Source of the DNA: Malania oleifera
Taxonomy: Eukaryota > Streptophyta > Magnoliopsida > Santalales > Ximeniaceae
Direction of reading: 5' to 3'
Assembly (NCBI RefSeq): GCF_029873635.1
Contig: NC_080425.1
Location: forward strand, 41,605,390 to 41,669,389
DNA length: 64,000 nucleotides
Shown one piece after another: positions 28,498-54,018 of this stretch (the first letter of the stretch is position 1; each line of letters begins with the position of its first letter). Made by a program: the position numbers and the translations under genes. The notes beneath the pieces were generated by a model. It had not been told where the DNA came from, made no database searches, and saw nothing but the letters and a program-made list of their open reading frames with translations.

Positions 28498-31024
28498 CTA
28501 ACTATAGATAATTAACTAGATTATTAACTATTTGTCATTAATGTCTAAATTTTGTTTCAATTGATATAGATTATTAAGTATTTATCATCAATGTCTGAAC
28601 ATTATTTTACAAAAATAATCAAGCAAAACATAAATGTTTCTACAAACCAAAATATATTTTACAATTATCATTATTGAGTCAATATTCATGAAAGACCATA
28701 AATTGCTGCAAAATTGGGGCGCTGTTTTTATCATGCTAAGGTTTAAAGGGTACTTGGTACAAATTACTTTGCAATCAAAGCATTAGAAGCCTTGATGTTT
28801 CTATGAATTGAATACATCTCCTTTGGCACCCTTTATGAAGATACAATATGCCCTTAGTAGCACATAAAGTAATCTTGTATCTGATGCCCATTCCAAAATT
28901 TTGTAATATAAGTTTTTGTTTGGAATTTTAGATTGAATTTCAAGAGGAACATCATTGTTATACAATAAGTGAAAAAAAATGATAATTTCATGATTATAGA
29001 ATCATGTGTTCGTATTCCAGTTCAGTATTAACATAGCATAGCATATGCTAGTTGCTTGAGTAATTATTAAGAACTCAAAAGGTAACAATCAATTAGAGGT
29101 CACGGTCACGAAAACTACTTTGGTTTTACGTTTAGTTTCACTCTTTCCATCTATTTCTCTTTTTTCCTTTATCTTCTTAAGTGGCTATTGCAAATCCGGG
29201 TCATTGTTACCAAGTGTTTGACACATAATATAGTCGATGATTGGAAAATGACTCATATATTTCATAAATAAATTTAAACTTGAAGGATGAAATAGACAAC
29301 ATAGGAAAAAAAAATTAGGTTCAATACGATGTGCAAAATGCACAAATAGACTTGTTTAATTCATTTGATAAGTAGATATTGGGACTTATAAAAGATAAAG
29401 GCATATTGCTTGCATTCAGTGCAATTACTTGAGTAAGAAACTTTAACCTATACATAAACTTGTAATTCAATTACAAAAAGGAAAATTATTTTTTTTAAAA
29501 AGAAAATAGCTGGGAAGCTTTGGATTTATCAAAAACGATCTCAAGAATATATACTTGAAGCACAATATGAACCACTATTGGATGCAAGAGTAGAAGAAGA
29601 GTTTTTTTTTTTTTTTTGTACCCAATGAACTGTAAAGCCAAATATCCTATTATCTTTTCAACTTTTTAAAGAAATTTGAAATTAGAATGAAACAGAATGC
29701 CAAATACAGTGTTTCAATAAAAAGTACAACAAAATAGGAACATAACACCTAATAAAATGCAACAACTCATAAAAAATAAGATCTACAGAGCAAAACATAT
29801 TATGCAAAGTAAAGGTAGAATAGACATTGAGGAAAATTATCAAACAAGTCCAAGCAATATAGAAACCAGTGGCTCTATTTGATATTTTGATGAAAACTAA
29901 TTCATTGTTGATGTCTTAGCTTATGCATGCATGGACAATTGTAAAAGGAATACTATTTAATTAAGCTATTTATTAAGAATGAAAATATCGAATGTGGTCA
30001 ATTTGGTTATAAAAACAATAGATATAAGATCAAGAAATGAATTAGGGTAGTAGAGTTGAAACTATCACATATATATGCACACACATACACATAAAACACA
30101 AATTTAAGGAAAAACACACTTTTATATAACTGGTACTTTTGGGAATTTTATGAACACAAATCTAGTCGAGATCTTCACACAACTTATGATTGTAATATGT
30201 CCTACCAAACAAAATTTCAAGAGATAAAATGAGATTAGATAATATAGCTAAAGGAGGGGAAGGGGAGAAGAAAAAGAGTTAATTAGGAAGTAATAAAAGA
30301 GTTCTTTTACCAAAGTCACACCAAAAACTATTGTTGATCATCATAGCCCTTCCGCCCCTTCATGCCATTAACCCGTAACTTTCTTATTCATGACCACCAC
30401 CAATACTACCCTAGGGGCGCCAACTGCTCCTTTGATGTCTCCACCCCTCCTTCTTTAGTGCATTTTCTAGTGACAATCACCCAATTTGCTCAAAGATTAA
30501 TCCTTGATATAATTTTTCAGTACAAAGAAATAACCATGATTGATGCACATTGTTGGGGGAAAATGTAAAAACTTAACAATTTCAATCATGCTTGGATTAG
30601 AAAATGAAGAATAGACATTTCGAGAAGGGGTACAATAACAACTTAATTTTGGGATAGGAAAGGAAAATCTTACATAATCAGCAAGCGTAGTTGAACCGTC
30701 AATTTTAGTAATGCAAGATAGGTGGAGTTTGATAACATAATGATAATAAAATGGGTAAAAGCAGATATAGTGAGAGATAGGGAAGAGGAACAGATTGATT
30801 ATGACTCTTTGGGTTCTCTTAAGGAAGAGAGAAAGTAGAAGATGCGTCCTGTTATTACTTATTAGGAACTCAAAAAGGATTTCAGGAAAAGTTGAGAGGA
30901 CAAATGGATATCCATGTGTGTCAAACGAAAAATAAGAAGTGAATTTTTAAGCTTTAGGCTTTGAGACATGTAGGGAAGGGATTAAAACTTTATAAAAATA
31001 ATAAATGGAGGATAAGTTTAGAAT
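28498..31024. other. Intergenic, no feature recognised
   Basis: AT-rich DNA between the solo LTR and the D nest. Small frames such as 30362-30568 show no recognisable domain. TATATATGCACACACATACAC at 30071-30091 is low complexity. Confidence 0.4.
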
Positions 31025-31484
31025 TGTTATGAAATATAGGTGGATGTCCTCCATATCAACCATGAACCTGCTCCATATATCTACACTAATTCATGTCCCC
31101 ATGAACCTGCCCCATATGTCTACACTAATTCATGTCCCCATGAACCTTCCCCATATGTGTACACTAATTATATCCTCATGTGAACCTGCATTATATGTTT
31201 GCACTAATAAGTCATGATGAGCTAGCTTTTGAAGGCCATAAATACCTCCTCCCACATAGCCAATGTAAGGAAGAAAAGTGGAGTAGATAAAGAGAAGAGA
31301 TATATCTTGTACAAAGCCGGTTCCGATATTTAGTACAAGGCCGATTCCAAATCATCTTATAATTCCGCCTGTGATAGTGAAGTTTTTGGTCCCATCTGCT
31401 CGTGGAGTAGGCATAGCTGAACCACATAAATTTTTGTCTCATCTTATTTCATTTTTCTATTTATTTTCTACATCTTTTATAACA
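31025..31484 (+). repeat. 5' LTR of element D
   Basis: 460 bp, TGTTATG...TATAACA. It pairs with 53555-54013 along its length. It contains four 39-bp tandem repeats (31061-31212). The sequence right after it (CTTTATAAGCACGAGACTCT) lacks the usual tRNA-Met site, so its primer is unclear. Confidence 0.88.
31061..31212 (+). repeat. 39-bp tandem repeats in D LTR
   Basis: Units begin CATGAACC or CATGTGAACC at 31061, 31100, 31139 and 31177 and contain CCATATNTNTACACTAATT. The same array, more decayed, is in the 3' LTR (53588-53745). Confidence 0.8.
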
Positions 31485-31646
31485 CTTTATAAGCACGAGA
31501 CTCTAACCAACTGATATATTTCTTTAATTCTTATTTAATTTATGAGGTTCTAACAACTGACATATTTATATATATTTATACCACCTTAATGGACAGTTTT
31601 ATTTCTGTATATTTATACCTCCTTAATGACGATTTTATTTTTGTAC

Positions 31647-31649
<3 letters not shown>

Positions 31650-31689
<40 letters not shown>
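31650..31689 (+). repeat. (TA)n microsatellite
   Basis: About 20 TA dinucleotides in the leader of element D, directly before the hairpin array. Confidence 0.9.
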
Positions 31690-31700: not shown

Positions 31701-32110
31701 ATCTCCAAAAGAGATGGTAAAATAGTCCTCCTAAAGAGGCTATATATTTAATCTCCAAAAGAGATGCTATATATTTAAATTTTTCGTCTATATATTTAAA
31801 TTTCTTGAAGAGATAGTCCTCCTGAAGAGGCAATATATTTAAATTTCTCATCTACATATTTAATCTCCCGAAGAGATAGACCTCTTGAAGAGGGTATATT
31901 TTTAACCTCTTGAAGAGATGTTCAAATCGATCTCTTAAAGAGGTGAAACTTTTATCTTCCAGATAAGGTAGTCTATTTAACCTCCGGAAGAGGTGGTAAA
32001 TTCTTACCCAATTTAATATTGTAAATTGGAATCATACTCCTGAAGAGTGTAAATTGAGAAAAATAAAATTATGTTCCTAAGAAAACATATTTAAGTAACC
32101 CTAGAAGGGT
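31701..32110 (+). other. Array of ~13 mini-hairpins in leader of element D
   Basis: Each unit is about 15 nt: a 5-bp (sometimes 4-bp) stem, a 5-nt loop mostly ending in GAA or AAA, and the partner stem. Starts: 31701, 31727, 31751, 31800, 31818, 31863, 31881, 31905, 31930, 31952, 31980, 32035, 32098. Examples: ATCTC-CCGAA-GAGAT, ACCTC-CGGAA-GAGGT, ACTC-CTGAA-GAGT, TTATC-TTCCA-GATAA, ACCC-TAGAA-GGGT. Stem pairs change together, and U-G wobbles occur at 31800 and 31930. Only the unit at 31905 has a mismatch. Common spacing is 22-28 nt. The array lies between the 5' LTR and gag, where retroelement packaging, dimer and translation signals sit. The role is inferred; the structure is seen. Confidence 0.75.
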
Positions 32111-32254
32111 GAAAATAATATTATATTATTATCCTGGTTCTATTTCAACTTTTACATTCTGTTTTTACAAATTGCCTTATTGTTAATTTATTTAAATGTT
32201 GAACATAAGTAAAATTAAATTTGTTCTACTTTGACATCAAAGGCAATAATTATA

Positions 32255-32433: not shown

Positions 32434-33006
32434 TGTTGTGATATGGATTGGATAAATATGAAGCACAATAGAATTAATACAACAAGTAAATGCAACACAA
32501 CCAAAAATTGATAAACAACAATATTTATGTGGTTCGGAAAAGCCTATCCACGGAAGTAATGGAAAACAAATTTCACTATGGAAATCTCAAAGTACACAAT
32601 ACACATATAAAAATGATCACTCTATCTCAATACATGCCCAAAATGACATATATAATAGTGTTTTAGAGGTTTCCCTACGATTACCCAACCACCCCAACGT
32701 TCAAGTTCAAAATTCAAAAAATTGCTCGCAGCCCAGAACTTCTCGTCGACAAGAACAAGGAATTTTATGATGAGACCAAGAAGGACACTCATCGACGAGA
32801 ATAGTACATTCGTCAACGTGCCCATTTTCTACTCTTGGTATCTTAGGATCTCTGATTTTTTCTTACTCTCTGGATCTCCTCGTCGACGAGTACACGACAC
32901 TCGTCAACGAGTCTTCTGCTGCCACTTAGGAACACTTCAAAACCCATGTTTTTCTTCCTTTGTTTGTGAATCTCACTAAGTATAAGAGTCACACACAAAT
33001 ATAACA
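32434..33006 (-). repeat. 3' LTR of element B
   Basis: 573 bp, reading TGTTATATTTGTG...CATATCACAACA on the minus strand. It pairs with 49378-49965, with scattered substitutions and small indels. U3 has a TCGTCGACGA palindrome array at 32741-32912 and a TATA-like TTATATAT near 32655. Confidence 0.9.
32741..32912. promoter_or_regulatory. TCGTCGACGA palindrome array in B LTR (left copy)
   Basis: Full or decayed copies of CTCGTCGACGAG lie at 32741, 32784, 32809, 32877 and 32899. Most variants are CG-to-CA or CG-to-TG changes. In transcription order (minus) the array precedes a TATA-like site near 32655 by about 90 bp. Confidence 0.8.
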
Positions 33007-33020
33007 ATCTCCACCTTGGC
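33007..33020 (-). other. Polypurine tract of element B
   Basis: Minus strand GCCAAGGTGGAGAT directly before the 3' LTR, the priming site for plus-strand DNA. Confidence 0.7.
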
Positions 33021-35625
33021 AATTATACACCCCTTAGGAGAATCCCAAAAAACATAGTTAATTGCTCGACCTTGAACTTGAATCGCTCGGTTGGGTTTGT
33101 CTCCCTTTTATCAATTGGAGACATGGAGTAAGTCCAAGCAATGCTTGAAATTCTCAGAAGTATTTAGTCAGAATATTTGCTGCATTTTCAGACGTGTGAA
33201 CTTTATCTAACACAAGCTCACCCAAAGCAATCAATTCCCCAACCCTTAGGCAGCTCACATCAATGTGCTTAGTTCTAGCATGGTATATCTGATTCTTCAC
33301 CAAGTAAATAGCACTCTAACTATCACAATGTAGCACCACTCCATCTTGCTGTAACCCCAACTCTCTAACTAAATCAGTAAGTCATAAGGCTTCCTTTGTA
33401 GCTTCGGCAACTACTATATATTTCGCCTCAGTCGTGAATAACGCTACTAAAGATTGTACCATGGATCTCCAACATACCGGTCCTCCTAAAAGGGTAAATA
33501 CATATCCCATTATAGACCTTCTGTCATCCATATCTTCAGTATAATCAGCATTTACAAACCTTATAACTGAAGGAAAACCCTATTGCTTGTCGAACATGAT
33601 GCCATATCCCAATGTACCCCGTAAGTATTTGAGTATCCATTTGACGGCTTCCCCATGCTGCCATTTGGATTAGAGAGAAACTTGCTTACCACACTCACCG
33701 CATGAGCCAAATCTGATCTCGTACACACCATGACATACATTAAACTCCCCATAGTGCTAGTATAGGGGACCTTCGACATGTCCTGGATTTTCTCATTCAT
33801 AGTTGGGCAATCTGCAGTAGACAACTTAAAATGATTCGCTAGAGGTGTACTCACCAGTCTTGCATCAGCCATGCTAAACCTCTCCAACACCTTATGCACA
33901 TAACCGCCCCTGAGATAGCCATAATCTCCCTGCAGTTTTGTCACGGTGGATCTCCATCTCAAGTATTTTCTTGGCCGAGCCAAGATCCTTCATGTCAAAT
34001 TCCTTATACAACAAGTTATTTAACTAATTCACTTTAGTTAAATCTTTTGTAGCTATCAACATGTCATCGACGTACAATAACAAGAAAATAAGAGAACCAT
34101 CCTCAAGCTTGTTCACATATACGCAGCAGTCATACTCACACCTTTTGTAGCCAATCTTGATCATATAAGAATCAAACCATTTATACCATTGCCTTGGAGA
34201 CTGTTTCAGCCCATAAAGAGATTTCTTCAACCTGTAAACTGAATTTTCTTTTCCTGATTCAATGAATCCCTCTGGCTATACCATATAGATTTGTTACTCC
34301 AAGTCACCGTGAAGAAATGTCGTCTTCACATTCATTTGTTCCAAATAAAAATCATAATGGGCTACCAACCCCAACACAATTATGATAAAAGTATGTCAGA
34401 CTACTAGAGAAAAGATCTCATCATAATCTATCCCTTTCTTTTGTAAGTATCCTTTTGTCACCAACCGTGCCTTGAATTTCTCTCCTTCCTTTTTTGAAAT
34501 TGTCTCCTTCTTCCTATATACCCATTTGCAACCTATCAGTCTCTTTCCATCTAGAAGCTCCCCCAAATCCCAAGTTTGGTTCTTATATAGTGATTCCATC
34601 TCCTCAATCATCGCACCCATCCACATATCTTTCTTCTGGTTGTGCACTGCTTCTTAAAAATGTAGTTGGATCGTTGCAACTAGTAAAGAAAGCATAAGTT
34701 ACTAACTCTTCAAATCCATACCTTGGTGGAGGCCTAATATTGCGTCTAGATCTCTATATAGGAATATCGTTGACTTGCTGGTTTCCTAAACTAGAACTCC
34801 CTGCAACCATAGGACCATGAACATTTCCGTTGCCCTGAGCTTCCAACTCCACCTTCACAACATGTTCATCACTGCCCCAGCTTTCTGGCTCCTATTTATG
34901 TTCATCATACTCTTGAGTACGCTTCACCATAACCTTCTCATCAAGGACTACATCCCTACTAATCACACCTTGTTTGTCACAGAGTCTCATAGCTTGTACC
35001 CCTTCACACCCTCTAGATATTCCAAAAAGATGCAACGACGAGACTTTGGGTCAAGCTTAGACCTCTCCTCACTAGATACATGAACATAAGATGGACACCC
35101 AAATACCTTCAATCTAGAGCAGTATACTGCATTTCCCATCCAAACCTCTTCTGCCACTCTACCTTTTAGTGACGCCTTTAGTGAACGGTTTATCAGAAAG
35201 TAAGCCATACTCACTACCTCGGCCCAGAAGTTCTTTAGTAGCCCTACATTTAATCTGAGACACCGAGCCCTTTTCAGAAAGAGTTTGGTTCATCTGTTCA
35301 TCCACACCATTTTGCTGAGGTGTCTGGAAAATTGTAAAGTGTCTCTTAATGCCATACTCCACACAAAACTCCATAAACCGAGAATCAGCGTACTCGGTCC
35401 TATTATCCAAACTTAAGTATTTGATTCTCCTCCCTGTCAAGTTTTCCATTTCAACCTTCCAAATCTTAAACTTAACAAACATATCTGATTTGTGACGCAT
35501 GAAGTAAACCTAGGCCTTCCATGAGTAATCATCAATAAAACTCACATAATACACGTGTCTACCCTTTGATGAACCTCTAACTAGACCCCAAACATCTGAA
35601 TGCACATAATCAAGAATACCCTTTG
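33021..35625 (-). pseudogene. Pol of element B, C-terminal part: integrase, RT, RNase H
   Basis: In minus order: integrase at 35625-34990 (DVWGLVRGSSKG start; FVKFKIWKVEMENL; D-N-x-T-E-Y-like LSLDNRTEYADS; altered TPQQNGVDEQMNQTL); RT at 34650-34020 (YGLKQSPRQWYKW and the catalytic YVDDML motif near 34075); linker and RNase H at 33983-33020 (PYTSTMGSLMYVMVCTRSDL, then the frame breaks). Stops and frameshifts separate the open pieces, for example near 34240, 34390 and 33560. Several conserved residues are changed (NGVAER to NGVDEQ). It is non-functional. The integrase N-terminal part lies beyond the C insertion, at 47923 onwards. Confidence 0.8.
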
Positions 35626-36939
35626 TCTTGTGTTGGAATTGGTGTGATCCCAAGAGGGGGTGAATTGGGTTTTAAAAACTTTTTGACTAATTTAAACGTT
35701 TCGCCGATTCACCACATATCATATCCCGTTATAATTATGGTCATGTATGTAAAACTAAATAAAAAATATGCGTAGACATACACGTGTATCTCCTTTAATG
35801 CAAATGTGTGCATGCAATTTGATATAACCATAAATGAATAAGCATACACATGTTGAATTTAAAGTGCATAAAATAAATGAGATAAGAAGAGAGAGACATA
35901 CGATATTTATTATCGAAATTTGGCCAAACCAGCCTATGTCCCTGCCTTAGGCATATCCCCCAAGGATTCCACTAAACCTGCTCACTTAAATATCACAAAA
36001 CGTAGCAAATCTTAATCCACCTGGATCCGTGGGTACCAGGGATACATCAAAAACACATCATGGAAGCCTATGCAGTAGGAAACATAAATCATAAACACCT
36101 CATTATACCATACATCACCGTACCAGAGTTACTACAATCACTATATTTATATGTACACAATACATAACCCAAAAGATATCTAGGTCCATCCACAAAATAC
36201 ATCCGACCTTATCAAAACACTTACCCTTCTAGAAGGGCAGACCAACTGTACTAGATCAGCGGGGCTTTACCCGCTATCCTATCAAGGGCTCTTGAAATGT
36301 TTATAAAATTCAGGGTGAGACACCTCTCAGTAAGGGAAATAAACTAATACTAGTGTGTGGCAACATGAGTATTCCGTGTTATACATATACCATACAAAAC
36401 ATATTCAGTAAACTATTATGTCAAATCTAGGAAAACATATATATCATCAAAACATGGCAGAACATACTGCATTTTCATAAACATATATCATCTTATATAA
36501 TAATAATACAAAAACAATCGTGGTAGGTTAGCTGGATGTTATCATGTATTACCCCCACATGGCTGGGTTGTGTGGCCCGAAGGCGGGACCTGACAATGGT
36601 TGGCCAATCACTACCAAGTCAAAAGTACAGTTTGTAAATCTAATGGGTCTACCAAACCTACACCAGAGGCGCTCACACACTTGTTAAAAACCACATCGAC
36701 CATCTAATCCCACACCACTTCGTACAGCGGCGTTAACATAAATATCATGATCATGATGACCATGGACACATAGCAACGGTATCGTGCAAGTGCTAGCCTA
36801 GACCAAGCCAACTATATTCTGATATCATATAACATATACTCAAACTGTGATACATGGATATTTCATATCATTAATTATCAAATCAATCATATCATTTTGC
36901 ATATATATATATATATATATGTATATCATGAAAATCATC

Positions 36940-37195
36940 GACTCGTATGCCGGTATTTCACATTTTATCGTAGCTCGGCTCATACGTCGGCAAATCATAT
37001 CCATAGCACAGCTTGTACGCTAGCAAATCATACACATAGCTTGCCTCGTACGTTGAAAAATCATTCACATAACACAGCCCGTACGCTGGCAAATCATTTC
37101 CATAACTCGGCCCGTACGCCAGCAAATCATACACATAACTCGGCCCACACGCCATCAAACATATATAAAAATCTCGGCCCGTACGCTGATTTTCC
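36940..37195 (-). repeat. ~35-bp tandem repeats in S1 (CGTACGGGCCGAG type)
   Basis: About eight units with CGGCCCGTACGC or variants and CAAATCATA(CC)ACATA spacers. They correspond to the array at 46051-46290 in S2, inverted. Confidence 0.75.
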
Positions 37196-37810
37196 ATTAT
37201 AAAAATCCGTATCATTAACACATTCCCAAAAAACAGTATTTCATATTAACTTCTACTTATGCCACACAAAACTGGTTTTTCGTATATTTAACATAGCATC
37301 ATTTTCAGTAGTATTTCCCAAATATAAATCATATATAAATATATTTACTTCCCTAAAATCAAATGCTATAATAATATACATACAGTTTCATAAAAGAACT
37401 AGTTTAGTTTATCCCCTTACCTGATTCCTAAAAAGCCCCTAAGAAAATCTGTCCCGCACCCGCAGGGTTCCCTACTCAACACCCTGGAAACAACATTCCC
37501 CAGAACTAAAGTTCAGTATTTCTATGCGTACTACGCTTTCTACAACTGTCAAAAATCCAAATATTGAGTAGAAAGCCTTACCCTGGATTTAGGATGGTTT
37601 CCAACTCAGCCCCACCGACGATCCGCTCCGGCAGACTTATAAAGAACTTTCCCAAGAGTGTCGTGGTAGCTTCAAATTGTTGAATCGGCAGAAAATCGGC
37701 CCGAGATCTTAGAGAGAAGGGTAGGAAACTGTATGAGGAGAGAGAGAGAGAGAGAGATTCTGCGCAGAAAAATGAAGTGAAAATCACGTTTAACCCTATT
37801 TATGTTATGG

Positions 37811-37981
37811 GACTCGTCGACGAGTCCTGTAGAAAGTTCGTAGATGAACTTCAACCCTCGTCAACGAATTTCAGGTTTCCACAAGTCCTCTTGTGATATC
37901 TTCTCGTCGACGAATCCTGTCTTCATTGATGAGCTCCTCTTATACCCTCATCGACGAGTCCCCTATGTTCGTCGACGAGGA
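37811..37981. promoter_or_regulatory. TCGTCGACGA palindrome array in S1
   Basis: Copies at 37812, 37838 (decayed), 37856, 37903, 37923 (decayed), 37948 and 37968. On the minus strand the array is followed within about 15 bp by ACATAAATAGGG (37804-37793), the likely TATA box. Confidence 0.8.
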
Positions 37982-38877
37982 GTTGAAAAATTTCTTGGGA
38001 TTATCCCATCCAAAATGCAATGTCGTCGATTGCCTCCTTCTATTCCTGTTTCCATTTTCCTTTCCTTTTATTATTTAAATACCATTATTCTTCGGGTCGT
38101 TACAACGAGGAAAACCTCAACTCAATTATAAGGATGAGCCCAACTTGTCTCCCGTATAGGGCGGAGACTCCCTAATTCAATTTCGGGCTGCACCCAACCA
38201 GTCTCACTTACAGGGCTGAGACTCCACAGTTCAATTAATGGGATGAACCCAACCAGTACAATAAAAATAATTTTTTAACATGAAAATGCTTATGAAACTA
38301 CAAGCAAAGATATACACATTTATGTTCAAATATATGCACTCTCTAATGATATGAAATAGGCTCAGTAAAGTAAGAGTGTGTTTCTCAAAATATTTTTTGC
38401 AATCTTTGAACATAATATGTATGATGAAGAATTCAAAGATTTAAATCCTAAACCAAATATTTATCCAAAAAATATTTTCAATAAGACTTAGGAGAACCTA
38501 GGGTTATAGTTTCAAAAACTTTGCACAAAACAAAATATATGCATTTGAAGATCTATGTGCAAATCAAAGTAAGTAAAAGTCGAAATAAAATACTCTCTTG
38601 TAAAAATGATTTACAAAAATAAATGAAAGAGAGTTTTGGAGAGTAAAAGATTCGCCCCCAAGAAATAGTTTTTGTAATAAAAACGTGTTTTGGGGAACTT
38701 TGATTAGGATAAAATAGAGAGAAAAGTTGGCTAATCAAAGTTTCCAACAAAGCAAATGAGAGGGTATTTATAGTTTTTCCAAAAAATATGACCGTTGGGG
38801 ACCTATTGGGGATTTTGAAAATTTTTAATTAAAATTTAATCCCAATTATCACAATTAATTTTTGGCAACTCGAGAGT

Positions 38878-39230
38878 TTCGGTCACCCGAATAGAGACAA
38901 AGAGAAAAAGGTGAGCTTTTGGGTTTAGGTGCCCTAGGGTGAGTTCAGTTGGCTGAAGTCAAGGCGATTTTCCAAACGTTCGAGGTACGGTCGTCCGGAA
39001 AGTGGTTCGGTTTGCCAAAACTCACAATTCGATCGCCCAAGCCTATTTTGAACTACAAGTTCAGTCGCCCCTAGAGAGTGGGAAAAATTAACTTTAAGGT
39101 TCGGTCAACCGTGGACGATTAGTTCAAATATGGTTTGGTCACCTGAGCCTTAGTCAACTTGTTTACTTCTTACTAATTCGGTCGACCGAGGCATTTATAA
39201 CCTCCTAGGTTCGGTCGCCCGAAGCTCTTT
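38878..39230. promoter_or_regulatory. TTCGGTCGMCCGA motif array in C 3' LTR
   Basis: Motif copies near 38878, 38984, 39003, 39026, 39059, 39100, 39132, 39177 and 39211; consensus GGTTCGGTCGMCCGAGC. The TATA box TATAAATA (38772-38765, minus) lies about 100 bp downstream in transcription order. The same array is in the other C LTR. Confidence 0.78.
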
Positions 39231-42200
39231 CAAAGTAGATTTAGGTCTAGATTTTGATTAAAAATTTCTCTTTTTCATATAGGTATGACATTTTAGTTCA
39301 AGGGATTTTTCATGAAATGTTTGGAGACTAAGGTTAGTCTAAGGCGTAGGCTTTTAAATTAAGCCAAAAAATCTAACGTCGGTCATTTGCCCTAAGGTCA
39401 TACTACAGCCTTTGGTTCCCTATGGCTAGTCTATGGTTCTGTCTGAGCATTCAATTCATATCATGTATATGCATGCATTATTACAGACCAAATAAAAAAT
39501 TAAATGCAATACAAATTAAAATCAAAATGTCTTCTTCTTTTGCTCTTCATTTTCTATGGAATTCGCCAAGAGTGTGTGAGCTTTATGTCCCTGCTGGCTT
39601 CCATTTTTCGGTATCTTATGTTCGTGCTGAAATAATAACCTATTCACACTAAATGCACACATAAGATACTAGTGGTCTTTCAGCATTAAAACAGAGATCG
39701 CACTCAAAAAGCCAACAATCTCCCTTTTTTTATGATGACAAACAGCCAAGAGCAAAGTGAGTACATCCTGAAAAAGCTCCCCTAAGAATATGCATAATGT
39801 AAGAATAACAATAATAGCTCAAGCATAATCATGAAAGAAGACATAACAAATAAAATTATGCATTTAATTTTACGTTAAGGCGCATGCTTAGATATTTGTC
39901 CCCTAAAATTTTCCCTTTCGGTCATTATCATTTTGCTAAAAAACATTCTCCCCCTTTCGTCATCAGCAAAAGGGTTAAGTTAAGTAGAAAAGATTTTGAT
40001 CATTTAGAAACAAACTTAGCAAAGAGAACTCTCCCCTTTTTGAAAAACACACTCTCTTTATGGTTTTGACATTTATTTTTCATAAAACAATATAACTGGT
40101 CATTAAGAAAATAACATGCTAACCATGGTCAAACCAGAAAATATCCTCAAACCATTGCAATTATGATAGCACGAGACAACTTGAGCATAATAGTGGTCTA
40201 ACAAATTCGCATGCATTTCATGAATGATTCATGAACCAGTTGTGAAACACCCTAAAAAAAATTTTATAACATACAATTTTAAAACAAGATATCACAAGTC
40301 ATGAAAACATTAAAACACACAAGCAAGAAACAAGATGTATTCAATGAAAGTTCATTTCTTGCATTTGAAAGAAAAAAAATGTATATAAATAAATATATGA
40401 TTAAAATATATATCCCCTAATGATTTTAGATAAGAACTGGGGGCAATGCTTGTTGAAAACAAAACTTTAAAATAAAGTTCAAACAAGCAATGTTTTTCTG
40501 GTTTGGCATTTAAGAGCATTCCAAGGTATAACCAAAAAAACAACCATATGGATCCAGAGAAAATAAATAATTTTTTTAAAAAAAATAGGGATCATATGGA
40601 AAACACAAAGAACCTATGGCAAAAATAATATTTTTCAAATTAAAGTTTTCAATAACATCATTACATTAAATCATGTGCCATAAGATGAATTCAAAATAGA
40701 TCTAAGCTAGAAGTTTGGGTGAGCACACAAGATAAAGATTTAAAGAAAAGATGCTCCCCCCATCAATTTGAATACGTGCTTAGATACTGTTAGCTAATTA
40801 TACTGATACAAAGTATGAAAATTTATTAAGAGTTCAAATAGTATAAGTACCATTTTTCATTTTAAAACAAATTTTATTGGATGTGTTAAACCAATTTATC
40901 TCACTAGTAAAATGTCCATAAACACGCATGCGCTAAAAATCAAACACTAATTCATGGATGGTGTTCATGTGTACCCGGAACACTCCATATCAAAGATGTT
41001 CAGTAGAGACAGGATATGATTGTTCAAGGTATTTAGAAAAGCTTCGGGCTCAAAAAGTAGAAACAATGAAAAATAAGAGTCCATAAGTCAGGTGCTTCAA
41101 TCCTTTTCTCAAGGATAGAGCTTAAAAACACCTCGGTATATTCTCAAGCACACATAAGTGCATTCATGGTCAGGGATGAATTTCATTTAATCACTTTCAA
41201 CATATATTCATCCTTCATAACAAAACTCAGCACGCAAGAGAATATATACGTTAAGCTCATATTCATTTTTCCTAAAAGTGGGGCTAAAGCTCCCCTGTAT
41301 ATTTGCATGCACGCATACTTGCAATTTAGTTCAAGGATGATAGTCATTTAAAAGCATTCCTTATATGTTCATCCTTTCCAAAGAATTTCAGCATGCAGCA
41401 AATATTAATCATTCAACACATATGCATGACATATTGCATTTCATTTTAAAAGCATGATAGTCAATCAAGGCTATGCTTAAAGGTGAGGCAATAGGGGATT
41501 AAAAAGAATGACACAACTCAAAATGCTCAATGAGTGTGTGCAAAATGAATGCTCTCCTCGAGTCATGCAAAATTCCTAGTCACATGGACTTAAAACTTAT
41601 GACGTGATTGCTAACCATTTAGGTCCAACATGAAGAATATAACCTAGGGATTAGGAACAAATGGCGTCCATGAACTAGTTCATCCTAAGACACAAAAAAA
41701 ATATGTACATGTTTTTCAATTTATATATAGCATTTAGGATTTTACATCTACTAACCTATTTAATTATCTAGCAACCTAGGAGATAAACATTAAGACTGTG
41801 CATGTTTTTTCAGTATATAACATTTAAGATTTAACATGCACCAGCGGACGGTTCATCATGCACCTATAACTAAGGATGAAAAATAATATTCTTTTATGAT
41901 TCATTAATCCTTTTAAAAAATATCTTAGCATGCATTAACTCATTATCTTCTTAGTGCATAATTTATATTCTTTAGCTATGTTGGGAAAGTCTACCGAAAT
42001 TTTGGTAGCATGTTGTCTATAAATAGGACATTTCCCAAAAACTTATGCACTAAAACCTAATAGATTCAACTAGGCAAATCATAGTAATTCAGTTTGAGCA
42101 TGCGAGAACCTATATCCACTATCAGCAAGCAATACACATCACTACATCAACCATACAAGAGACATTCAGAACAAGCATACAATTCAGTAGTTCCATCAAG

Positions 42201-42679
42201 ATAGACTATCCATTAAATAATATAATCATTTTTACAAGCAATGGATAGTGACATTTAGTTCAAATAAATTATCCATCAAATATAGTTGAACTTTAAGCGA
42301 AGGATGGACAATAGGCATTCGTTTCAAAGTAGTCACAAGGAAATATCCATTCATCAGAAAATACAATCATTTAGTACAAATGGATATTTGCAATTAGCTC
42401 ACAAATCATAAATAACTATCCATAAAGTAGGCTTAAGCATTCTATGAAAAATGGATAGTGGTGTTTAGCACTCAAATCATCCAATCTAAAACGATAAACA
42501 AAAACACAATAAATTATTTATTGGATGAGATTTTAAATTTGCTGCTCCCCCTCAGTTATGCAGTCGAGGAGTTTTATATTCTGTTTGGCATAACTAATAT
42601 TTTCAAACGGGAGGATGAGCATATGAATGTGTTTGAACATGATTAAGCGTTTAAGCTCCATGATAAGTTTAGGGTTATA

Positions 42680-42680
<1 letters not shown>

Positions 42681-42718
<38 letters not shown>
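42681..42718 (+). repeat. (TA)n microsatellite
   Basis: Nineteen or so TA dinucleotides in the interior of element C. Confidence 0.9.
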
Positions 42719-42724
<6 letters not shown>

Positions 42725-43660
42725 ATACTATTAGAAATTCCCTAAAACTCAATCTATGTGATTGACAAAACATGCTATAATTCAAGAATTTTAAGCTTTA
42801 AGCATATATAGCATCTTGAATCTTATAGCAATTTAAAATATTTTGTTCATTTGAAACAAGCTATAGCCAATATATATAAACCAATCATATTTATATGTAT
42901 ATATATTAAGTTTAGATTGGATATGATCATTAAAACTCATGAATTGCGTAGTTTTTCATAGGGTTCCCAATAAAACAATATATTAATGGTTTAGAATTTT
43001 AAGCATTATACACTATTTAAGCATTTAAGGCATTCTAACCCTATTTACAACAATTTCTAAAATCTTATGAGTATTAATGAAATTTTATTTTTCAGCATGT
43101 CATAAGCTAACATGCGATAACAATATGATCCATATAAAAAGATTTATCATATTATACACCATATGAATCATTTCATAAAACATTCAACAAAGTAGAAGGA
43201 GAAAAGATATACCTTTTCATTTTAACTCCTTCTTAATCATTTAGGCTCGGAGTGGTGTCCATTTCTCTCTCGATTTTTCAATACCTCATGGTTCCCAAAG
43301 TACTTAACACTTAAGAAAAATATAAACTTGTAAAAGCATTATTGACTAAGGCACAGTAAAAGTATGAATGGCACACAAAATGATATGCATAAAAATCATG
43401 TTATGCAAATTCATTTCATTTTCAAAAATGGGAACTTTGCATTTTAAAAATATTTTCAATGTGATATGATTTCCTTTGCCAAACACTTTCCAAATCCTCC
43501 GATCATTTTATTTTACAAAAGCATTTTCAAAAATTCAAATGGTAAAATTTATATAATAATAGCAGTGGACGATTTGCAAAGGGTTTATCCTTAAAACTGG
43601 GATACACCGAAGACGAGTCGTTACAATCTTTATGCAAATGTGGTTAAGCTTATTGCAACT

Positions 43661-43676
43661 AGGCTTTGATACCAAT
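43661..43676 (-). other. Primer-binding site of element C
   Basis: Minus strand AATTGGTATCAAAGCC follows the LTR end directly. It is the tRNA-Met type site with A for G in CAGAGCC. Confidence 0.85.
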
Positions 43677-45234
43677 TGTTGGAATTGGTGTGATCCCAAG
43701 AGGGGGGTGAATTGGGTTTTAAAAACTTTTCAACTAATTTAAACGTTTCGCCAATTCACCACATATCATATCTGATTATAATTATGGTCGTGTATGTAAA
43801 ACTGAATAAGCAATATGCGCAGACATACACGTGTATCTCCTTTAATGTAAATGTGTGCATGCAGTTCGATATAACCATAAATGAATAAACATAGACATGC
43901 TGAATTTAAAGTGCATAAAATAAATGAGATAAGAAGAGAAAGACACACGATATTTGTTATCGAGGTTCGGCCAAACCAACCTACATTCCCGCCTTGGGCA
44001 TACCCCCCCCCCCCCTAGGATTCCACTAAGTCTGCTCACTTAAACAGGAGGAGCAGAAGCCATTTACATCCTCTCCTTACAGGGCAAGGAAAATTCCAAC
44101 TCAATTACAAGGTTGAGCCCAACTTGTCTCCCTTACGGGGTGGAGACTCCCCAATTCAATTTCGGGCTGAACCCAAACGGTTTCACTTACAGGGCCGAGA
44201 CTGCCCAGTTCAATTAATGGGATGAACTCAACCGGTACAATAAAAATAATTTTTATACATGAAAATGCTTCTAAAAATACAAGTAAAGATGTACACATTA
44301 ATGTTCAAATATATGTACTCTCTAATGATATGAAATATGCTCAGTAGAGTAAGGGTGTGTTTCTCAAAATATTTTTGCAATATTTGAACATAATATGTAT
44401 GATGAAGACTTCAAAGATTTAAACCCTAAACCAAATATTTCTCCAAAAAATAATTTCAATAAGACGTAGGAAAACCTAGGGTTATAGTTTCAAAAATTTT
44501 GTACAAAACAAAATATATGCATTTGAAGATCTATGTGTAAATCAAAGCAAGTAAAAACCCAAATAAAATACCCTCTTGTAAAAATGATTTACAATAATAA
44601 ATGAAAAAGAGTTTTGGAGAGTAAAAGATTTGTCCCAAGAAATAGTTTTTGCAATAAAAACGTGTTTTGGGGGAACTTTGATTAGGATAAAATTAGAGAG
44701 AAGTTGGCTAATCAAAGAAAATGAGGGGGTATTTATAATTTTTCTCAAAAATATAACCGTTGGTGACCTATTGAGGATTTTGAAAAAGTTTAATTAAAAT
44801 TTAACCCCAATTATCGCAGTTAATTTTTGACAACCTGAGAATTTCGGTTGCCCAATCCTTAGGGACGGTTGCCTGAACAGAGACAAAAAGAAAAGGTGAG
44901 CCTTTGGGTTTGGATGCCCAAGGATGAGTTTGGTTGGCTGAAGCCAAGAAGATTTTTCAAACGTTCGAGGTTCAGTTGCTCGGCAAGTGGTTCGGTTTGC
45001 CGAAGCTCACAATTCGGTCGCCTAGGCCTATTTTGAACTACAAGTTCGATCACCCCGGGACAGTGGGAAAAGTTAACTTTAAGGTTCAGTCGGCCGTGGA
45101 CGGTTAGTTCAAATATGGTTCGGTCACCCGAGCCTCAGTCAACTAGTTGACTTTGTAGTGATCCAGAGAATTATGGTATTTAAATAATGAAAGAAGGGGG
45201 GAAAGGAAATTGTATTTGAAATACTTAAATATGG

Positions 45235-45441
45235 CCTCGTCGACGAACACAGGGAGTTCGTCGACGAGAACACATGAGGGTCTCATCGATGAGGATGTGT
45301 CTCGTCAACGAGAAAATACCGAGATGTTATTTTCCCATCTCTAAATTTCATCGACGAGAAAGAAACGTTAGTCGACGAACGTCCTTCGTGACCTCGTCAA
45401 TGAGGTTATGTGGCTTGTCGACAAAGGCCAGTGTATAAATA
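45235..45441 (+). promoter_or_regulatory. TCGTCGACGA palindrome array plus TATA box in S2
   Basis: Copies at 45237, 45257, 45282, 45301, 45348, 45369, 45393 and 45416, perfect or with CG-to-CA/TG changes. TATAAATAG follows at 45434, only a few bases after the last copy. This is the clearest example of the array-TATA arrangement in the window. Confidence 0.85.
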
Positions 45442-46050
45442 GCCCTAAACGTGATTTTTCAGCTGATTTTTCACGCAGAAACCCTCCTCTCTCTCTCTCT
45501 CTCCTCTTTAGTTTTCTCCCCTTCTCTCTAAGTTTCTGGGCCGGATTCTCGCCGGTTCGACAATCTGAAGCCACCATGACATTCCTAGAAGAGTTCTCTT
45601 CAAATTTGGTGGAGTGGATCGTTGGTGGGACTACCTTGGAATTCATCCCATATTCAAGGTAAGGCTTTTTATTTGCAATTTGGTTTTTCCATAGTTATAG
45701 GAAATGTTGTACACAGAGTAATACTGAAGTTTAGTTCTAAGAGATGTTGATTTCAGGGTGTTGAACGGGGAACCCTACGGGTGCAGGATTGATATACTTT
45801 AGGGGCTCTTTAGGAATCAAGTAAGGGGATAAACTAAGCTAGTTGTTTTTATGAAAATATATGTATAGTTTTACAACATTTAATTTTAGGAAAATAAATA
45901 TTTATATATTAACATTATGTTTGGGAAAATACTATTGTAAATGATGATATGTTTTAAATATAAGTAATACCCATTTGTGTGGTAAGAGTAGAATTTATTA
46001 TGAATTACTGTTTATGGGAAAATGTTAAATGATACAAAGTTTTTATATGA

Positions 46051-46290
46051 TATACCAGCGTATGGGCCGAGAGTTTTTAAATTATATACCGGCGTATGGG
46101 CCGAGAGTTTTTAAATGATATACCGACGTACGAACAGAGAGTTTTTATATGATATACCGGTATACGGGCTAAGAGTTTTTATATGATATATCGGCGTATG
46201 GGCTGAGAGTTTTTATATGATATACTGGCGTACGGGCCAAGGATGTTCTTACATGATATGCTAGCATACGGGCCGAGCCTTTTTATGTGA
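46051..46290 (+). repeat. 34-bp tandem repeats in S2
   Basis: Units start TATACCGGCG-like at 46051, 46085, 46119, 46153, 46187, 46221 and 46257; consensus core CGTACGGGCCGAGAGTTTTT. Decayed units continue to about 46350. The array lies downstream of the TATA box, so in the transcribed part of the LTR. Confidence 0.85.
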
Positions 46291-47922
46291 TATGTGATAC
46301 TATATACGGGCCGTGATTAATAAAATACGAAATGCCAGCATAATGCCGGCATAAGGGCCGATGTTTTTCATGTTATGAATGAAATGCGATATGATGATAT
46401 TGATTTGACAATTATTATTATGGAATAGCAATGTATCACAATTTGAAATATGTTATATGTTATCATATCCTGGTTGACTTGGTTTAGGCTTACACGAGCA
46501 CGGTATCATAGTTATGTGATCATGATCATTATGATATTGTGTTATTGCTGTCGTACGGGGCAGCATGAGGATGGATAGTCGATGTGGTTTATTGAAGTAT
46601 TGGTGCCCTTGGTGTACGGACCAGGTTTGGTAGACCCATCATACTTACAGACTTTACTTTTGACTTTACAGTGGTTGGCCAGCCATTGTCAGATCCTGCC
46701 TTTAGGCCACATAACCCAGTCATGTGAGGGTAAGACATGACATCAGCCAGGTAACCTTCCAGGGTTGTTTTTTTATTATTATTATTATATAAGATGAATT
46801 ATGCTTATGGAAATTCAGTATGTTCTGCCAAGTTATGATTATAAATGTTTTTCTCAGATATGTTACAGACAGATTCACTGTATATGTTTATGTATGGTTA
46901 TATGTATAACACAGAAATACTTATGTTGCCACACACTGATATTAGTTTATTTCCCTTACTGAGAGGTGTCTCATCCCAAAATTAATGAATATTTCAGGAG
47001 CCCCAAGTAGGAGAGCGGATAAAGCTCCGCAGCATTAGAGTTCAGATGTTTTACCCTGTCTGAAGGGTAAGTTTGTTGTTAGGGTATGACGGATTTGAGG
47101 GCGGTGACCCTAGACCACTTTTGGGACATTTTGGGTTATGTGTATTTTTATAATGTATGTAGTAAATTCTAGTATTGTGTTGAATGGTACTATGAGATGT
47201 ATATGATTTTATGTTTCCTACTGCTTAGGCTTTCGTATTGTAATTTTGATGTATCCTTGGTACCCACGGGTTCAAGTTGATTATGATCTGCTAGGTTTAT
47301 TATATTGGTTTTTATTATCATGGAAAAAATGGTAAAATAAGTAGGTCGTTACAGACTTTTTACTAGTTCAGTCAACCGAGGCATTTATAACCTCCTAGGT
47401 TCGATCACCTGAAGCTCTTTCAAAGTAGATTTAGGTCCAAATTTTGATTAAAAGTTTCCATTTTTCATATAGGTATGACATTTTAGTTCAAGATATTTTT
47501 CATGAAATGTTTGAGGACCTATGGTCAGTCTAAGACCTAGGCTTTTAAATTAAGCCAAAAAATCTAACGTCGGTTGACCGAAGTTTGTCCTAAGGTCAAA
47601 CTATGGTCTTTGGTTCCCTATGGTTAGTCTACGGTTCTGTCTGAGCATTCAATTCATATCATGCATATGCCTGCATTATTACAGACCAAATAAAAAATTA
47701 AATACAATAAAAATTAAAATTAAAATGTCTTCTTCTTTTACTCTTCATTTTCCATGGAATTCGCCTGGAGTGTGTGAGCTTTATGTCCTTGCTGGCTTTC
47801 ATTTTTTGGTATCTTATGTTCGTGCTAAAATGATAACATGTTCACACACTAAATGCACACATAAGATACTGGTGGTTTGTCGGTATCAAAATAGAGATCG
47901 GACTCAAAAAGCCAACATCTTG

Positions 47923-49360
47923 TGTATAGTTGGTCTGAACTTTGCCCTATTCTGTTTTCCAATAACACAAATCTTGTAAAATTCCAGCTAACATGATTTC
48001 AAGTCCTTCAATAATTTCCTCTTGTATAGTTCTTTCATGTCGTGTTCTCCCATATGCCCAAGACGCATATGCCATAAGACGGTCTCATCTGATTCAGCAT
48101 CTATGACTGCAACTCCACCTACAACAGTAGTTCCCTGCAGTGTGTAGATATTCCCATCCAGTTTTTGCCCTTTCATTGCAGCCAGATTACCTTTCCATAC
48201 AGTCAAAACTCCACCTTTGGACTTGTGATAAAAGCCATTACAATCCAAAGTACCGAGTGATATTAAACTCTTTCTTAACTCTGGTATATGTCTTACATTA
48301 CACAATGTTCTTACAGGACCATCAAACATTTTTATCTTTACATTTTCTATGCCAATGATTTTGCAAGAAGCATCATTACCTATAAGAACTGATTCAGAAT
48401 TCACTAACCTGTAAGTGCTAAACCACTCCTTGTTCAGAGTCATGTGATAAGAACATGCCGAGTCAAGTATCCAAGAGTACGTTAGACTATCTGACCCCGC
48501 TGAAACTGATAGAACATCACCATCACTACACGTTGAACCTCCTTCTTGAACAACATTCACAGATTTTTAAGTATCTTTATATTTCTCAGAATTTCCCTTT
48601 TTCCAATCCAGACATTCTGGTTTCACATGCCCCTTTTTATCGCATTTATAACACCAGATTTCTTTCTTCTTCTTAAATTGATTTTGGGATTTATGACTTG
48701 ATCCATGTTTGAATTTTCCTTTGCCTTGCTCATTATTACCCTTTATCACAAGTCCTAATCCTTTATCACATATCTTCAATCTTTGATGAAAATTTAGCAA
48801 AACACTTGTTACCTTTTCAAGATCAAGAGATCCTTTTCCCCATGTAAGAGTGGTCACCAGACCAAGATTTTCATAGGTATGAGTCGAGGGCAAAGAGTTT
48901 AACAACATCAAAGCTTCATCATCCACATCAAACTTAACATGAACTCTCATCAAATCACTAATAATTTGATTGGAAGCATTAATGTGTTGATCTAAGTTTG
49001 ATCCTTCAACCATCTTAAGTCAATACAAACACTGCTTAAGAAAAAGTTTATTATTGAGAGATTTGGACATGTATCGGCTGTCTAACTTTCGCCATATAGC
49101 AGCTGGACAATCCTCCTCCATCACCTGGCAGATTACTTCATTAGCCAAACATAAGTGTATTGTAGAAGCTGCCTTTGCTTGCAATTCTCCCCATGTTGCC
49201 TCATCCATTCCATCTGGTTGAACACCAAGTAATGCATTTCCCATTCATTGTTGTACAAAAATGTCTTTCACTCTCCTCTGCCATAAACTAAAGTTTCTGG
49301 TTTCATTAAATTTGACGATGTCAAATCTTGCAGAAGACGATCCTCATGCTATGACAACAA
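47923..49360 (-). pseudogene. Gag, protease and pre-integrase of element B
   Basis: In minus order: gag from about 49350 (GMDEATWGELQAKAASTI; RYMSKSLNNKLFLKQ), an in-frame TGA at 49022-49020, then MVEGSNLDQHINASNQIISD and the zinc knuckle CYKCDKKGHVKPEC (CX2CX4HX4C) near 48645. A stop at 48569-48567 follows. Then come protease with WILDSACSYHMT (catalytic D-S-A in place of D-S-G near 48470) and the GAG-pre-integrase motif LWHMRLGHMG near 48055, with another stop near 47988. Gag packages the RNA; protease cleaves the polyprotein. The open pieces stay close to one frame, so decay is moderate. Pol continues left of element C at 35625. Confidence 0.82.
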
Positions 49361-49361
49361 T

Positions 49362-49377
49362 TGCTCTGATACCAATT
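49362..49377 (-). other. Primer-binding site of element B (tRNA-Met)
   Basis: Minus strand AAATTGGTATCAGAGC follows the 5' LTR end at 49378. Confidence 0.85.
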
Positions 49378-49965
49378 TGTTGTGATATGGATAGGATAAA
49401 TAGGAAGCACAACGGAATTAATACAACAAGTAAATGCAACAAAACTAGAAATTGATAAACAACAAGAACAACAATAAGATTTATGTGGTTCGGCAAAGCC
49501 TATATCCACAGAAGTAATGACACACAAATTTCACTATGAAAATCTCAAAGTACACAATACACTTCTCAAAATGATCACTCTATCTCAATACAGGGCTAGA
49601 ATGACATATATAACAATGTTTTAGAGGTTTCCCTCCGATTACCTAACCAGTCCAACGTTTAAATTCAAAATTCAAAAAACTGCTCGCAACCCAGAACTTT
49701 TCGTCGATGAGAACATGGGATTCATCAACGAGACCAAGAAGGACACTTGTCGACGAAAACAGGGCATTCGTCGACAAACCCATTTTCTGCTCTCGGTATC
49801 TCAGGATCTCTGAGTTTTTTCTTGCTCTCTGGATCTGCTCGTTGACGAGTATAAGACACTCGTCGACGAGTCTTCTGCTACCACTTAGGAACACTTCAAA
49901 GCTCATGTTTTTCTTCCTTTGTTTGTGAATCCCACTAAGTATAAGAGCCACACACAAATATAACA
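49378..49965 (-). repeat. 5' LTR of element B
   Basis: 588 bp, ends TGTT...AACA, pairs with 32434-33006. TCGTCGACGA array at 49701-49872; TATA-like GTTATATATG near 49605 (minus), downstream in transcription order. Confidence 0.9.
49701..49872. promoter_or_regulatory. TCGTCGACGA palindrome array in B LTR (right copy)
   Basis: Copies at 49701, 49722, 49748, 49770, 49839 and 49861. The two B LTRs differ in which copies are perfect, for example the unit at 32877 is perfect while its partner at 49839 reads CTCGTTGACGAG. Confidence 0.8.
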
Positions 49966-53554: not shown

Positions 53555-54013
53555 TGTTATGAAATATAGGTGGATGTCCCCCATGTCAACCATGAACATG
53601 CCCCATATATCTACACTAATTCATATCCCCATGAACTTGTCTCATATGTCTACACTAATTCATGTCTGTATGAACCTGTTCCATATCTGCACTAATTATA
53701 TCCCCATATGAACCTACCCTATATGTTTGCACTAATAAAGTCAGGATGAGCTAACTTGTGAAAGTTATAAATACCTCCTCCCACATAGCCAATGTAAGGA
53801 AGAAAAGTGGAGTAGATAAAGAGAAGAGATATAACTTGTACAAAATCGATTTTGATATTTAATGTAAGGTCGGTTTCAAATCATCTTGTAATTCCGCTTG
53901 CAATAGTAAAGTTTTTGGTCCCATCCGCCTGTGGAATAGACATAACTGAACCACGTAAATTTCTGTCTCGTCTTATTTAATTTTTCTATTTATTTTCTAC
54001 ATCTTTTATAATA
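53555..54013 (+). repeat. 3' LTR of element D
   Basis: 459 bp, TGTTATG...TATAATA (the last bases decayed from TATAACA), followed by target copy AGAAT. It contains the 39-bp repeat array at 53588-53745. Confidence 0.88.
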
Positions 54014-54018
54014 AGAAT

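Follow-up and report, generated by a model that had tools for sequence, protein, structure and literature searches.

CNGAA-loop hairpins arrayed in the leader of a Bianca-type copia retrotransposon family of Malania oleifera: a candidate docking site for Gag

Retroviral packaging signals lie between the primer site and gag, and to our knowledge little has been worked out about how plant LTR retrotransposons choose RNA for packaging. The name Bianca, for the lineage that will concern us here, was reportedly given by Wicker and Keller in 2007. Several described systems resemble parts of the hairpin array that we report from a copia retrotransposon of Malania oleifera, element D. In MLV-like type C retroviruses, adjacent hairpins with a shared loop stand in the leader 5′ of gag (Konings 1992, as cited in PMC5086612); there they are a pair of GACG hairpins, whereas here there are a dozen CNGAA pentaloops, and we claim no sequence kinship. 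For BARE, also a plant copia element, signals for dimerization and packaging are described as conserved; the available text on them does not specify their nature, and the word "hairpin" is absent from it (PMC3735527). The grapevine elements Noble and Tvv1 likewise have copia leaders of variable length between the 5′ LTR and gag, but Noble has the primer site TGGTATCAGAGCC and varies by large indels, and the accessible part of that paper does not contain the word "hairpin" (PMC2576258). The Smaug/Vts1 element, as set out in the portion of PMC4053848 at hand, shares with the array a short non-specific stem and a loop that starts C-N-G with a free second position; its consensus is CNGGN0-3, the majority loops here are CNGAA, and given this misfit at the fourth base we rejected a Smaug recognition element as an identification. 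The Bianca lineage itself shares with D's family a half tRNA-Ile (I34) primer site, a 5-bp target-site duplication (TSD) and a copia Gag; the main text of its description, as available, never uses the word "leader" (Neumann et al. 2019, PMC6317226), and two of the leader types discussed below, those of family A and of a fern-like relative, are without the array. Our literature search, over partly available texts, found no description of such an array; an earlier mention in Wicker and Keller (2007) is possible.

Element D lies on the plus strand of the window, by which we mean the whole 64-kb stretch of DNA analysed, with LTRs that are 87.8% identical and the TSD AGAAT on both sides. Its parts are as follows.

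31020-31024 and 54014-54018: left and right TSD AGAAT
31025-31484, plus strand: 5′ LTR of D (TGTTATG...TATAACA)
31485-31499, plus strand: primer-binding site of D (half tRNA-Ile type), altered from the family sequence CGTTATCAGCACGAG
31563-31636, plus strand: two 37-nt repeats with another hairpin type (CC-TTAAT-GG core)
31650-31689, plus strand: (AT)20 microsatellite in the leader of D
32196-32198, plus strand: gag start codon of D; the frame is broken, and element E is inserted downstream
51915-51953, plus strand: coding repeat with the hairpin motif of the array, in the pol linker between INT and RT; it reads SPAEKSPPEEESPE
53555-54013: 3′ LTR of D

The original prediction placed the array between the 5′ LTR and gag of D, and the LTR, primer site, TSD and gag ATG bear this out. 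Another copia element, E, on the minus strand with LTRs near 32434-33006 and 49378-49965, is nested in D's gag; as E splits D inside this gene, what is left of D's coding region is found mostly past 49965, and its pol is broken. Element E (32434-49965) contains further internal repeats, with parts of 35631-39717 corresponding to parts of 43677-47917, and the LTRs of D hold 39-nt tandem repeats (31060-31208 and 53590-53707). The 37-nt repeats, 5′ of the array, form a hairpin of the type ACCGCC-TTAAT-GG(A)CGGT; a motif like it is present in 9 of 36 leaders of families B and C, and the CC-TTAAT-GG hairpin type occurs in family B as well as in part of the copies that make up D's own family. An Rfam scan over 2001 nt returned three sub-threshold matches (E 0.086-0.52), none of which reached the curated score.

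The primer site marks D as a member of the Bianca lineage of Ty1/copia. The family's site CGTTATCAGCACGAG is complementary to half tRNA-Ile with I34, and such a primer, with A34 edited to I, is given for Bianca alone in the available text of Neumann et al. (2019, PMC6317226). A copia-type Gag and a 5-bp TSD are common to other copia lineages and are thus not specific for Bianca. The 14-nt primer motif CGTTATCAGCACGA occurs 168 times in the 1.49-Gb genome, its reversed pattern 0 times. In what we take to be a 23-nt stretch of tRNA-Ile(AAU), the last 14 nt are the complement of the primer motif except at position 34, and this stretch occurs 12 times in the genome. Retrotran_gag_2 was found in a fragment of D with an E value of 0.0028, below the curated cut-off; among the matches listed, 120 of 671, many Gag relatives carry PF14223 and they come from many dicots and some monocots.

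The prediction of about 13 short hairpins with 5-nt loops at 31701-32110 stands up well. A strict scan (at least four Watson-Crick pairs, a 5-nt loop and at least two G-C pairs) finds nine hairpins in the 410 nt of the D leader, against a mean of 0.53 and a maximum of four in 2000 dinucleotide shuffles, and when units with wobbles and one mismatch are counted the array (31701-32111) comes to about 13. Loops of 4, 6, 7 and 8 nt are at or near chance, so that the excess is specific to 5-nt loops; hairpins with 3-nt loops number four, a count reached by 7 of 2000 shuffles, and three of these four are nested in 5-nt-loop units. Across the 64-kb window, the only 410-nt tiles with at least four loop-5 hairpins are the three over the array. 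Besides the units listed here, the D array contains two unpaired remnants at about 31778 and 31842.

31701-31715, plus strand: u1, ATCTC/GAGAT
31726-31740, plus strand: u2, (T)CCTC/GAGG(C)
31751-31765, plus strand: u3, ATCTC/GAGAT; 28 of the 39 further copies have a gap here
31800-31814, plus strand: u5, with a wobble from a C>T change in D
31817-31831, plus strand: u6, CCTC/GAGG (GTCTC/GAGAC in family B)
31863-31877, plus strand: u8, ATCTC/GAGAT
31880-31894, plus strand: u9, CCTC/GAGG
31905-31919, plus strand: u10, ACCTC/GAGAT, one mismatch, likewise in the family majority
31930-31944, plus strand: u11, family majority ACCTC/GAGGT, with a wobble in D by C>T
31953-31969, plus strand: u12, family majority CCTC(CAGAT)GAGG, in D changed and shifted to UUAUC/GAUAA
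31980-31994, plus strand: u13, ACCTC/GAGGT, loop CGGAA
32008-32029, plus strand: AT-rich hairpin of another type, CCAATTT/AAATTGG, 8-nt loop
32035-32049, plus strand: u15, TACTC/GAGTA type
32070-32089, plus strand: u16; in many other copies a TTC/GAA stem with loop CTGAA or CTAAA
32097-32111, plus strand: u17, ACCC/GGGT

A DNA search of the M. oleifera genome with the array, in which 40 of 820 candidates were scored, gave 52 matches at 40 main places including D. The array is carried by the 39 further array-matched copies and by the sister family B; in the 39, which were selected by array match, its presence follows from that selection. They have 2-10 strict units each, with a mean of 5.6 against 1.5 (0-7) in 500 nt of gag, and unit number and array length vary between copies. 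In the tree of the 40 leaders the tips are long and the inner branches mostly short, and there are two subfamilies. A segmental duplication is suggested by three array copies that are nearly identical: two are on C13 (40604337 and 40567380; L029 and L032) and one is on a small contig (C493:22550; L031). Differences among the copies are mainly C>T and G>A (31 rows, nine long-branch rows having been left out of the divergence rates). In stems, 15% of the cells at C and 17% of those at G are changed, compared with 29% and 31% for loops, 20% and 22% for spacers and 27% and 22% after the array, and with 3-9% at A and T (31 rows); the stems are least changed at C and G, in figures uncorrected for CpG or unit choice from which we conclude nothing.

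With all 40 rows included, the 54 majority pairs show 38 double changes where 30.4 are expected, and the compensated doubles, 17, equal the expectation of 17.1. Covariation among copies at these orthologous pairs, a test of which the original prediction had proposed, is thus absent beyond chance, and the changes within units look like neutral decay after insertion. Such decay, as we read it, also accounts for the two wobbles of D (31800 and 31930) and for the UUAUC/GAUAA stem. The wobbles are present as predicted, but rather than paired variation they are changed states of units that bore C and G, and the stem at 31953, put forward as covarying, is the decayed state of a CCTC/GAGG unit. This decay, the varying unit number and array length, and a sister family that manages without the array all accord with a functionless origin, in which slippage or template switching during reverse transcription built a neutral tandem repeat whose units pair only by recent common descent. 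We nevertheless think such an origin rather unlikely in view of the comparison between units and families.

Between units, the loop is constant and the stems are not. A majority vote per column gives the loop CNGAA for 11 of 12 units in the main subfamily and for 9 of 12 in D's subfamily, where several columns lie below 60% and the exceptions are u1 (TAGAA), u2 (CTAAA) and u12 (CAGAT); in the main subfamily the N is A, C, G or T, that is, free. The loop ending had been described as mostly GAA or AAA: GAA holds, CNGAA being the commonest loop, and most cases of AAA we read as G>A decay. The stems agree between both subfamilies. In 12 units, from which u3 and the two unpaired remnants were omitted for pairing and loop statistics alike, 54 of 60 pairs are Watson-Crick; when the 3′ arms are re-dealt the mean is 44.0 and 54 is reached once in 20,000 (with G-U allowed, the mean is 47.1 and the observed value is reached 20 times in 20,000). 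The eight distinct stem classes give p 0.004 (0.023 with G-U), and ten classes, which add GTCTC/GAGAC of family B and an outer unit, u0, give p 7e-5 (8.6e-4 with G-U). In eleven classes, with u16 added, 48 of 55 pairs are Watson-Crick; the mean after re-dealing is 35.9, and the observed value is reached in 0 of 200,000 re-deals (54 of 200,000 with G-U), and their inner three pairs are Watson-Crick in 33 of 33 cases (1835 of 200,000). Classes u0 and u16 were taken from row lists of copies rather than from the column vote. As the units arise by tandem duplication and were chosen from hairpins visible in D or by eye, the stem classes share ancestry and are not fully independent, and the p values are not exact probabilities. 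A loop-anchored scan, which requires no pairing and so avoids the bias of hairpin selection, finds four inner Watson-Crick pairs at 141 of 376 CNGAA sites and at 22 of 616 control sites in 75 leaders of B and C; the sites stem from related copies.

The claim of paired change around a fixed loop therefore survives between units (48 of 55 against 35.9) and fails among copies (17 compensated against 17.1). That differing stems pair far above re-dealt arms, that the loop is constant while its second position is free, and that B and C, 81% identical in gag over 292 nt, both carry the array all speak against a neutral repeat, and we consider it likely, from the covariation between units, that RNA-level selection acted on pairing.

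The array could alternatively be read as DNA, as sites for a dimeric host protein in an enhancer or insulator. Insulators in the leader of gypsy are a precedent for a DNA-level array of binding sites, and the many degenerate copies, AT-rich spacers, leader position and dyad symmetry would fit; the covariation of arms and a loop confined to the plus strand (on the minus strand, 0 of 79 CNGAA sites have four inner pairs) point instead to a folded single strand, which makes a DNA-level role very improbable. Slightly less remote, though still quite improbable, is a dimer linkage in which the left arms of one RNA pair with the right arms of another. Left arms are alike, as are right arms, and swapped arms pair in 69% of cells compared with 81% for matched arms; on the other side, pairs 1, 2 and 4 form less well with swapped than with matched arms. 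A dimer held by kissing loops was ruled out by the loop letters, since CNGAA is not self-complementary.

Structure prediction gives a mixed picture. For the D array the predicted folding energy is -103.4 kcal/mol, with a z of -4.1 relative to 60 shuffles, and in its predicted local ensemble the inner pairs exceed 0.5 in 6 of 13 scored units, u10 and u12 being scored in a shifted register. The predicted probability that CNGAA is a closed loop is 0.25 in family C (167 sites) and 0.30 in B (32), compared with 0.011 in gag (277) and 0 in family A (4); it is above 0.5 at 43 of 167 sites in C, 9 of 32 in B and 0 of 277 in gag. The MFE z scores, for 11 stretches each, are -1.8 in C (310 nt), -2.1 in B (250 nt) and -1.4 in A, so that the predicted overall folding energy of B and C hardly exceeds that of A. 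Hairpins in a leader may also act on translation, tuning, together with short upstream ORFs, the access of ribosomes to gag or favoring shunting. The last unit of D ends 84 nt before the gag AUG (32196), at about the distance seen in other copies, and by eye some right arms contain upstream AUGs (GAGAUG); however, stems of 4-5 bp are too weak to block ribosomes well and translational control needs no constant loop, and we hold it to be improbable.

With a Gag query from Carex, 123 gag loci were scored of 3623 candidates in the genome and leaders were taken for 70; hairpin means per family refer to the leaders in which the primer site was found (34 in A, 11 in B, 18 in C). The 34 leaders of family A (median 259 nt) have the primer site but are without an array, at 0.03 strict hairpins each. 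Family A amplified despite this and accounts for 34 of the 70 leaders, so the array is dispensable for the lineage. The 11 leaders of family B (median 371 nt) have a shorter array on the same plan, with 3.8 strict hairpins each, and the 18 of family C, to which D belongs (median 569 nt), have 4.3. Pair 2 of u6 is T-A in family B and C-G in family C. Nucleotide identity of representative gag sequences is 0.72 for A-B, 0.69 for A-C and 0.81 for B-C (292 nt). Family assignment was not uniform between methods: one grouping puts L065, L077 and L089 in B where BLAST sorting puts them in C, and BLAST sorting placed the window's own leader in B, contrary to its array and tree.

Searches for relatives in viral and genome contigs found only two, both probable contaminations. 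L049 (1-1250), filed as an uncultured Trichormus MAG (cyanobacterial), is plant, fern-like Bianca copia DNA and likely a contamination; its short leader has the primer site and no array. L048 (1-684), in a contig filed as Solirubrobacter sp., is a plant Bianca gag, also likely a contamination, with no hairpin marked in the 129 nt between the contig end and the gag match. The plasmid collection gave no match. Given its presence in B and C and its absence from A and L049, the array was, as judged from this genome, gained in the B/C branch or kept only there.

We propose that the leader array just 5′ of gag in B and C would be a family-specific RNA signal. It follows one plan, a variable stem of 4-5 bp closing a CNGAA loop, repeated with AU-rich spacers and often in side-by-side pairs 2 nt apart, and while the family was active selection may have held stems paired and loops constant as the units multiplied and diverged. 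A constant loop with a free second position, on differing paired stems, on one strand and in many copies has the look of a loop-on-stem motif read by a protein; the loop on its stem would then be the recognised object, and its many copies a multivalent docking site. The likeliest reader would be the element's own Gag, selecting genomic RNA for the virus-like particle, since packaging signals of retroviruses occupy the same place and since, with a signal peculiar to the family, the Gag of B and C could distinguish its own RNA from that of family A. If RNA-level selection is accepted, the odds of a Gag or packaging role seem to us about even. Taken together, a family-specific docking array, probably for the family's own Gag and selected for pairing while the family was active, is the reading that we favor, at a probability of roughly 0.4 on sequence evidence.

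The prediction also noted a perfect unit in pol. It is present at 51932-51946, in the pol frame and inside an SPEE-type coding repeat, which explains it, though it remains curious that it goes together with the leader array. The leader hairpin 11-mer CTCCTGAAGAG is tandemly arrayed in D's INT-RT linker too, with like spacing near other leader arrays; selection common to leader and linker, or sequence exchange between them, may lie behind this. Coding accounts for the pol unit and not for the same 11-mer being arrayed in leader and pol of one branch. Over the whole genome we count 381 matches to the double motif CTCCNGAAGAG and 5 to the reversed pattern; among the matches listed, its places have either leader-type spacers or the 15/18-nt spacings of D's pol, the coding nature of the latter setting being established in D alone, and places of the two types form same-strand pairs separated by a few kb (C2:118707703 with 118710167 and C3:37661255 with 37664363, among others). 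The linker repeat is absent from three family A linkers (three readable of five stretches), and one of these loci, L124, has a single CTCCNGAAGAG beyond the linker.

For work on such elements, our results carry a caution, in that the hairpin variation of a single old copy may consist largely of decay; it is comparison of units, and of families, that is informative. There, a constant loop on covarying stems, together with a sister family without the array, offers a concrete candidate for a packaging signal. The fullest form of the proposal, that a CNGAA-pentaloop array was gained once in a branch of the Bianca lineage and is read by the element's own Gag, with a second set in the coding linker between INT and RT, is doubtful as a whole; if true, the array would be a multivalent recognition signal in RNA that forms a class of its own.
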